Assembly: GCA_945917765.1 (NCBI GenBank)
Contig: CAMEHU010000015.1
Coordinates: 1 to 39,788, forward strand
Reading direction: 5' to 3'
Length of the DNA: 39,788 nucleotides
Source of the DNA: an uncultured Lachnospiraceae bacterium
Lineage (GTDB): Bacteria; Bacillota; Clostridia; TANB77; CAG-508
Shown piece by piece: positions 12,524-15,448 of the stretch. Positions within the stretch are counted from its first letter, which is position 1. Each line of letters starts with the position of its first letter. Under the pieces are notes generated by a model. The model was not told the origin of the DNA, ran no database searches, and worked only from the letters and a program-made list of their open reading frames with translations. Position numbers and translations under genes: made by a program.

Positions 12524-12572
12524 GTCCCAAATTGTGCAAAATGCACAACTGGGACGCGTCCCCAATTGTGCA
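12524..12572. repeat. GGGGAC palindrome R1
   Basis: The hairpin GTCCCA ... TTGTGCA-AAA-TGCACAA ... TGGGAC (12524-12555) overlaps GGGACGCGTCCCC followed by AATTGTGCA (ending 12572). Its right part is a 21-base inverted match to R2 at 13786-13806. It sits just beyond the stop of the acetate kinase gene ending at 12582 and may also act as its terminator. Confidence 0.8.
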
Positions 12573-13785: not shown

Positions 13786-13834
13786 TGCACAATTGGGGAC
13801 GCGTCCTCGTTGTGCATTTTGCACAACGAGGGAC
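13786..13834. repeat. GGGGAC palindrome R2
   Basis: TGCACAATTGGGGACGCG followed by TCC is the inverted counterpart of R1. It runs into a perfect hairpin CCTCGTTGTGC-ATTTT-GCACAACGAGG. The element lies just upstream of the ackA ribosome binding site, so in mRNA it would be a 5' leader hairpin. Confidence 0.8.
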
Positions 13835-13935
13835 ACATCTTCAATCATCTTAAATTTTTCTATATATTTATAACATATTACTAATGTAAATTTCAAGATT
13901 ATTAGTCAATGTTTTCTCATTATTTTAGTAGAGTA

Positions 13936-14087
13936 GTCGAAATTTTAAATTAGGTAAGAGCAGAAAATATATTAACAATGGAGTACAAAGTGCGCAGCTT
14001 GGGAGACACAAGCGTCAGCAACGTCGACCAGCAAGCGTACGCAGTGTTAATTATATTTTGAGCGATTACATAATTTAAAATTTCGAC
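13936..14087. repeat. 152-bp long inverted repeat with G+C-rich branched core
   Basis: The outer arms GTCGAAATTTTAAATTA (13936-13952) and TAATTTAAAATTTCGAC (14071-14087) are perfectly complementary. Inside, GTAAGAGC faces GCGATTAC, giving tandem G-A contacts. A second stem pairs AAAATATATTAACA with TGTTAATTATATTTT with one bulge. The core (about 13984-14043) is much richer in G+C and holds a GCTTG/CAAGC hairpin. It lies between the two ackA genes and would be in their shared transcript. It could be a MITE-like element or a structured RNA; no known family is recognised. Confidence 0.75.
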
Positions 14088-14114
14088 GCTCCCTGCAAAA
14101 AAACAAACTAAGCA

Positions 14115-15308
14115 CTAACACATCTTACCTTTTACATCCCTAGCAATCAACAATTCCTCATTAGTAGGTACAACAAACATCTCTACAGACGAATCAGAAG
14201 CGGAAATTTTGCCTTCACAATTAACATATGTATCATTTGCTTCTTCATCTAATTTTACTCCTAAAAAAGCCAAATAATCGCAAATCTTTTTTCTTTCTTT
14301 TGCATCTTTTTCACCAATGCCTGCGGTAAATGTGATAATATCAGCTCCTTGCATAGAAACCATATATTTAGCAATAAATTGAGCTACATTATATGCAAAA
14401 GAATCTAATGCCATTAAAGCATTTTTGTTTCCTTCCATAGCTTCAGCTTCAATATCTCTAAAATCTACAGATACTTCTGAAATTCCATATACTCCTGATT
14501 TTTTATTTAATATCTCATCCATTTCATCTGGAGTATGGTTTCTAGATTTAGCAATATATGTAACTACAGAAGGGTCAATATCTCCGCTTCTTGTTCCCAT
14601 AGGAATTCCACCAAGTGGAGTAAATCCCATACTTGTGTCAACTGATTTTCCATTCTTTATTGCACAAATACTTGCACCTTGACCTAAATGACAATTTATA
14701 ATTTTCAAATCTTCAATAGGTTTATTAACCAACTCTGCAACTCTATTGGCAACAAATTGATGTGATATTCCATGGAAACCATATCTACGAATTTTATATT
14801 TTTCATAATATTTATATGGTATAGGATATATATAACTTTCTTCTGGAATTGTTTTATGAAATCCTGTATCAAAACAAGCTACATTTAATTTTCCAGGCAT
14901 TACATTCATGCAAGCCTCAATTCCTGAAATAGCTGCTGGATTATGCAAAGGTGCTAAGTCTATAATTGATTTTAAACCATCTAAAACTTCAGGTGTAATA
15001 ACAACAGGATCTGTGTATTTTTCCCCTCCATGAACAACTCTATGACCAATAGCGTCTATTTCATCAACAGATTTTATAACTCCATATTGATTACTTAATA
15101 ATCTTGTCAAAACAAATTTAATTGCCTTCTCATGATTAGACACAGGACGTTCAAATTTATGTTTGTTATCTCCAACCTTATGTGTCAGAAAAGAATTATT
15201 TTGTCCAATTCTTTCAAAATTTCCCTTTGCTAAAACTTCTTCAGTTTCCATTTCAATCAATTGGTATTTAAGTGATGAGCTTCCACTGTTTAATACTAAT
15301 ATTTTCAT
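14115..15308 (-). CDS. ackA: Acetate kinase (paralogue 2)
   Basis: This second acetate kinase, 397 aa, has the same landmarks: NSGSSSLKYQL, HRVVHGGE, FDTGFHKTIP, RRYGFHGISH, GIGEKDAKER. The frame extends upstream to 15422 through palindromes R3 and R4, but the ATG at 15308 with GAAAGGA 8 bases before it matches the family N-terminus. It follows pta by 141 bases, so pta and this gene form the canonical acetate operon; the copy at 13772 looks like a later tandem duplicate or an acquired paralogue. The two differ at many positions, so the duplication is not recent. Confidence 0.95.
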   Translation of the reverse strand: MKILVLNSGSSSLKYQLIEMETEEVLAKGNFERIGQNNSFLTHKVGDNKHKFERPVSNHEKAIKFVLTRLLSNQYGVIKSVDEIDAIGHRVVHGGEKYTDPVVITPEVLDGLKSIIDLAPLHNPAAISGIEACMNVMPGKLNVACFDTGFHKTIPEESYIYPIPYKYYEKYKIRRYGFHGISHQFVANRVAELVNKPIEDLKIINCHLGQGASICAIKNGKSVDTSMGFTPLGGIPMGTRSGDIDPSVVTYIAKSRNHTPDEMDEILNKKSGVYGISEVSVDFRDIEAEAMEGNKNALMALDSFAYNVAQFIAKYMVSMQGADIITFTAGIGEKDAKERKKICDYLAFLGVKLDEEANDTYVNCEGKISASDSSVEMFVVPTNEELLIARDVKGKMC

Positions 15309-15330
15309 ATTATCAATCCTTTCTACTTTT

Positions 15331-15365
15331 ATGAAACATTTGGGGACGGTCTTGTTTTGTTTCAT
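15331..15365. repeat. GGGGAC palindrome R3
   Basis: The 35-base unit has ends ATGAAACA and TGTTTCAT complementary to each other and core TTTGGGGACGGTCTTG. It is a 33/35 inverted match to R4, 48 bases away, so the pair can form one large hairpin in the pta-ackA intergenic mRNA. Confidence 0.8.
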
Positions 15366-15413
15366 AAAGTTACTGTATTTTTTAGTGTCATATATATTAT
15401 ATATATATAATAG

Positions 15414-15448
15414 ATGAAACAAATTAAGACCGTCCCCAAATGTTTCAT
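15414..15448. repeat. GGGGAC palindrome R4
   Basis: Inverted partner of R3, ending one base before the pta stop codon (15450-15452 on the minus strand). It may serve as a pta terminator or mRNA processing hairpin. The spacer to R3 is an alternating TA run. Confidence 0.8.

Follow-up and report, generated by a model that had tools for sequence, protein, structure and literature searches.

The hairpin at positions 13936-14087 is very probably an old copy of a non-autonomous transposable element of the MITE type, one of two readings offered by the initial annotation. This identification draws on the repetition of the element in many copies, on its inverted terminal repeats and the 8-bp duplications of the target, and on presence of the element at the ackA site in some relatives but not in others. 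Among the copies the sequence of the arms turns over while their pairing stays, and the core is conserved.

A decayed copy between two acetate kinase genes

The window analysed here is the whole stretch of 39,788 nucleotides, in which the hairpin lies between two genes that had been called ackA and that both encode acetate/propionate kinases (TIGR00016). A phosphotransacetylase gene is located upstream of the kinase pair, with all three genes on the minus strand. The predicted RNA fold of the hairpin reached -55.1 kcal/mol on the plus strand (z -8.6) and -49.0 kcal/mol on the minus strand, and none of 200 dinucleotide shuffles matched the fold energy on either strand, in agreement with the earlier claim of a fold far beyond chance. 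The perfect 17-bp outer arms described by the initial annotation were found, as was a second stem of 14 bp, with one bulged base. In our fold the stretch between the two stems, said to be a single GA/GA loop, contained two short helices of 4 bp and 2 bp along with small internal loops, and the supposedly branched core was predicted as one interrupted stem. The sharp contrast in composition was reproduced, with 57.6% G+C in the core compared with 21-23% in the arms and 27.3% in the window. The limits first given do enclose the hairpin, but comparison with intact copies extends the whole element to approximately 13901-14119 (Table 1).

The family carries no gene, no open reading frame of 80 amino acids was present inside the window copy, and a covariance model of the family matched the window in a single place (13945-14078). 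The first ackA gene now takes its stop codon from the right end of the copy. Decay of the window copy is seen in its degenerate ends, its lack of a target duplication and one-sided changes in its arms relative to L017, the copy that occupies this site in genome G006.

Table 1. Features of the element copy in the window.
Feature	Position	Strand	Basis
Whole relic element, degenerate end to degenerate end	13901..14119	+ (core strand; both ackA genes minus)	Intact copies, bounded by GTTACWRTTYA and its reverse complement; probable limits
Degenerate left terminal repeat (ATTAGTCAATG)	13901..13911	+	Sequence compared with GTTACWRTTYA; putative
GTAGAGTAG motif, hairpin foot, common to many copies	13928..13936	+	Copy alignment and flanks
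Left palindromic arm	13936..13978	+	Folds; covariance model match 13945-14078
G+C-rich core including apical segment, 57.6% G+C	13979..14044	+	Alignment, core analysis, composition
Right palindromic arm	14045..14087	+	Folds; covariance model match
TGCAAAA motif, common to many copies	14094..14100	+	Copy alignment and flanks
Degenerate right terminal repeat (GTTAGTGCTTA on the minus strand)	14109..14119	-	Sequence; putative
TAG stop codon of first ackA, within right end of element	14115..14117	-	ORF 14115-15422, minus strand; gene ends otherwise in relatives

Copy number and distribution

The initial annotation had proposed blast searches and a covariance model, and had held that a single copy with no conservation in relatives would make a functional role unlikely; the searches returned many copies in many genomes. 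Blast with the hairpin stretch gave 16 matches in its own genome (G000), one of 9 genomes with matches among the 57 examined, which describes a multicopy family and not a single locus. A covariance model built from the inner part of the element had matches in 13 of the 16 genomes of the host genus; under stricter filters it detected the family in 11 of the 287 genomes sampled within the order, representing three of 45 genera, and the family was sparse in the two genera other than the host genus. Counts from this model, such as 61 in the window's own genome, include reverse-strand self-matches of the palindrome, and 193 matches were reduced to 106 used as distinct copies, from 10 genomes. In the consensus from an alignment of 20 copies there were 51 pairs, and both sides had changed in 28 of these. 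Across the family, copies adjoin unrelated genes. A regulator of the acetate genes confined to one locus was rejected on the grounds that the family is multicopy by blast and most relatives lack the element at the ackA site.

A pattern scan of named genomes recovered 31 stretches, all in metagenome-assembled genomes and labelled Clostridia or Lachnospiraceae in 30 cases and merely bacterium in one; sample names included 'Lapin', which we read as rabbit, roe deer rumen and sheep rumen. Viral contigs, plasmids and phages, each searched with one pattern or query, gave no match, and no description of this repeat family was found in the open-licence literature. As an abundant MITE family, the element shapes gene spacers in gut Clostridia.

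Anatomy, target duplications and empty sites

In better-preserved copies the outermost parts of the element are GTTACWRTTYA ends arranged as a terminal inverted repeat. Inside these, many copies carry GTAGAGTAG on the left and GGC...TGCAAAA on the right, followed by the arms and, further inward, by a ATATATTAA helix and a core of the form AGTG...GTGCGCAGTTTGG ... CCAGYAA...ACGGA, with variants. Core and inner helix are conserved among copies, and the apical segment occurs as several mutually unrelated types; L017 has the arms and core of the window copy with a wholly different apical segment. Four copies with long arms (L023, L030, L122 and L123) have no recognisable GTTAC end, which counts against the MITE reading. 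The cores of these four copies lie within near-perfect arms of up to approximately 60 bp, mostly unlike the arms of other copies, and the palindromes look as if they had grown into the flanking DNA. Two copies in genome G008 (L067 and L080) adjoin or sit within a further inverted repeat, GGGACACCTCCAAAAAACATC. In genome G014, the core of one copy on contig 17 (L240) contains a group II intron (RF00029, RF01999) in reverse direction, at approximately 422-1021.

A further check named in the initial annotation was for target-site duplications, which were found in the family and not at the window copy, where the flanks TCAAGATT and ACATCTTA differ; this mismatch also counts against a MITE. Pairing of end motifs 40-320 bp apart in all fetched loci gave 65 distinct end pairs, with exact duplications of 8 bp in 26 cases, 7 bp in three, 4 bp in two and 3 bp in two, and of more than 8 bp in none (for example TTTTAAGA, CATAATTG and CCCTAATA). 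The other 32 pairs had no duplication of at least 3 bp, a further point against the MITE reading. When one mismatch was allowed there were 38 distinct cases, whereas a displaced control position gave none in 132 candidate pairs, a figure in which overlapping loci are counted more than once. End pairs were 64-287 bp apart, and the same ends and duplications were present at two loci of another genus (L110 and L093). One element in G014 kept ends, arms and duplication with the core absent, and another frame with the same ends and a duplication was filled by a different hairpin.

Of the 15 genomes for which the spacer at ackA was printed, the window's own genome and G006 contained the element and 12 did not; in G014 the site had an apparent end fragment, as judged by eye. 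In G005 the site is empty and the downstream sequence is otherwise similar. A different, very long hairpin occupies the spacer behind ackA in G011 (L217), one of the 12 genomes without the element, and may be a distant relative of it.

Turnover of paired arms

Over approximately 40 bp, 37 of 89 distinct arm pairs were perfect. Outside the unpaired hairpin foot, mismatches read on the core strand comprised 16 of the G-U type and 18 of the A-C type, against 3,458 Watson-Crick pairs; the two being equally rare, neither strand shows the wobble tolerance expected of RNA, and the lack of a G-U excess points to template switching on DNA instead of slow RNA compensation. Among 64 pairs of copies with near-identical cores (at least 95% identity), which share relatives and are not independent, 1118 arm pairs were unchanged, five had changed on one side and 92 on both. 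L130 and L133, for example, have identical cores and differ in one compensated arm pair. Orthologous loci in G013 and G009 gave 21, 0 and 3 arm pairs changed on no, one and two sides in one comparison and 21, 1 and 2 in the other, and these two-sided changes indicate that arms also change in place.

From this mutation pattern we consider it probable that DNA polymerase repeatedly switches templates at a near-palindrome and copies one arm off the other, so that new arm sequences would arise on both sides together. The long palindrome would thereby be kept nearly perfect until a copy decays, as the window copy has started to do. The window copy and its ortholog L017 differ by five one-sided arm changes and one two-sided change, which counts against such a mechanism. 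Gene conversion between copies could add to the two-sided changes. It is very improbable that these changes are made during transposition itself, with one arm templating the other in a self-priming hairpin intermediate and an enzyme outside the tested transposase families joining the element with its 8-bp duplication. If true, such transposition-coupled arm copying would be a hairpin-templated route of spread; we know of no MITE for which one has been described.

With so many copies that are nearly the same, the family offers a natural experiment on how the perfection of long palindromes is maintained, and it makes template switching in bacterial palindromes directly measurable. As two-sided arm changes exceed one-sided ones by approximately 18 to 1, covariation in this family could be misread as proof of a functional RNA.

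Mobilisation and alternative explanations

Movement of the element in trans would depend on a transposase specific for the GTTAC ends that makes cuts staggered by 8 bp, with insertion favouring A+T-rich spacers, often directly behind a stop codon. Transposases of the IS256 and ISL3 families were each found in none of seven genomes, and those of IS1595 in none of eight, all of which counts against the MITE reading; DDE_Tnp_1 had a match in one of 10 genomes (G001). Searches by end patterns for an autonomous partner returned no long element, in draft genomes that break at repeats, and the fetched loci contained no end pairs more than 320 bp apart with a duplication. We also weighed a palindrome of the REP type that a RAYT (Y1) transposase, reading GTAG at the foot of the hairpin, would mobilise as a DNA single strand. 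Many copies do carry GTAGAGTAG at this position and Y1 transposase genes were present in 11 of 17 genomes searched, but the most uniform subfamily (G014, L142-L153) lacks the GTAG foot, the hairpin is far longer than a REP, and 8-bp target duplications are not expected of RAYT mobilisation. Moreover, Y1 genes do not track the family: G002 is rich in copies without a Y1 match, and G001 has three Y1 matches and no copies by blast, weaker ones being found by the covariance model. We therefore rejected this origin, which is extremely unlikely. Alternatively, the core might move on its own and insert into the tips of palindromes that were already there, which would explain why arms are unrelated between copies. 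The core does sit within arms of many unrelated sequences, and both the core-less G014 palindrome and the frame holding a different hairpin fit such insertion; yet the former is the only one of its type among 58 end matches in G014, where deletion explains it equally well, and where copies are nearly identical, their arms are distinguished by single compensated pairs and not by replacement of the whole palindrome. Independent movement of the core is thus very improbable.

The other reading of the initial annotation, a cis-acting RNA of the acetate operon, was not borne out, because copies lie beside unrelated genes, most relatives have no element between the kinase genes and the arms show no preference for G-U. 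A broader proposal is that the hairpin, when transcribed downstream of a stop codon, contributes to the stability, processing or attenuation of mRNA between genes of the same direction and is selected as a structured RNA, mobility being its origin alone. The core is antisense to two co-directional flanking genes in 62 copies and sense in 13 (p 8e-9), a pooled count that is not fully independent since G009 and G013 share some orthologous copies; the ratio in the window's own genome, a single genome, is 21:1. Median distances are 39 nt to gene 3' ends and 126 nt to gene starts, and the conservation of core and inner helix also fits an RNA. Orientation and distance were taken from mechanically called ORFs, and two of the 106 copies, which lacked flanking ORFs on both sides, were dropped. 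Copies between divergent (20) or convergent (9) genes were opposed to the regional gene direction in 18 cases and in agreement with it in 11. However, replication direction or the purging of one orientation could produce such a bias, the arms show no excess of G-U over A-C (16 and 18), and no Rfam family matched on either strand. Among the wobbles in the core, the most frequent is at pair 38, with G-T in 32 of 91 distinct copies; on the strand that is usually transcribed it turns into A-C, which makes the core strand the better candidate for an RNA helix, if either is one. A known Rfam RNA was rejected, the window having no match at gathering score and ten further loci giving only the group II intron in L240; an intrinsic terminator was likewise rejected, as no terminator-like site was found in the region. 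Selection as a structured RNA is on balance unlikely to account for the element, and the antisense bias of the core would allow a secondary RNA role.

Comparison with described repeats and mutation mechanisms

The MITE that we propose is, by analogy, closest in style to RUP, ERIC, QMITE2 and bcr1. Passages in PMC2229807 and PMC10969869 describe RUP, ERIC/IRU, Correia/NEMIS and the Coxiella QMITE2 as MITEs of approximately 100-300 bp with terminal repeats, target duplications (7-9 bp in QMITE2) and no transposase gene of their own, which are intergenic, form a stable stem-loop and are thought to be mobilised in trans. Our element is like them in size, ends, duplications and intergenic stem-loop, a likeness that does not extend to any sequence relation shown. 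Unlike these elements as described there, it has a conserved core flanked by arms whose sequence varies from lineage to lineage with nearly perfect pairing retained, and its partner enzyme was not found. The bcr1 repeat of the Bacillus cereus group, from a different host group, is portrayed in part of PMC3446304 as MITE-like and intergenic, often in untranslated regions or operon spacers, and is likened here by description, not by sequence.

Template-switch mutation in RNA hairpins, as outlined in sections of PMC8794818, copies one arm from the other in a single event and leaves double changes that keep pairs. The same pattern of change is seen in the arms of our element; the cases presented there concern RNA genes, whereas here the arms are the DNA of a mobile repeat with no sign of selection for RNA wobble. 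What is unusual in our family is the extent of the arms (40-60 bp) and the measured ratio of two-sided to one-sided changes.

According to the account of REPs in PMC3733652, these are palindromes of 20-40 bp with GTAG at the foot and subfamilies with complementary stem changes, many of them downstream of genes, so that compensated stem variants are not without precedent. Compensated stems and a frequent position downstream of genes are common to our element and the GTAG-tagged REPs with RAYTs, as is the GTAG foot in many copies of the element, the L142 type lacking it; the element differs from these in its GTTAC-type ends, its 8-bp duplications and its lack of a link to Y1 transposases. Another palindromic repeat (GGGGACGCGTCC, with GTGCA arms) brackets the second ackA gene in the window (12551-12560 and 13796-13805), with one copy abutting the ribosome-binding site of that gene, and as it also occurs on both sides in a Y1 transposase locus of the same genome (L055) it looks like a RAYT-linked REP.
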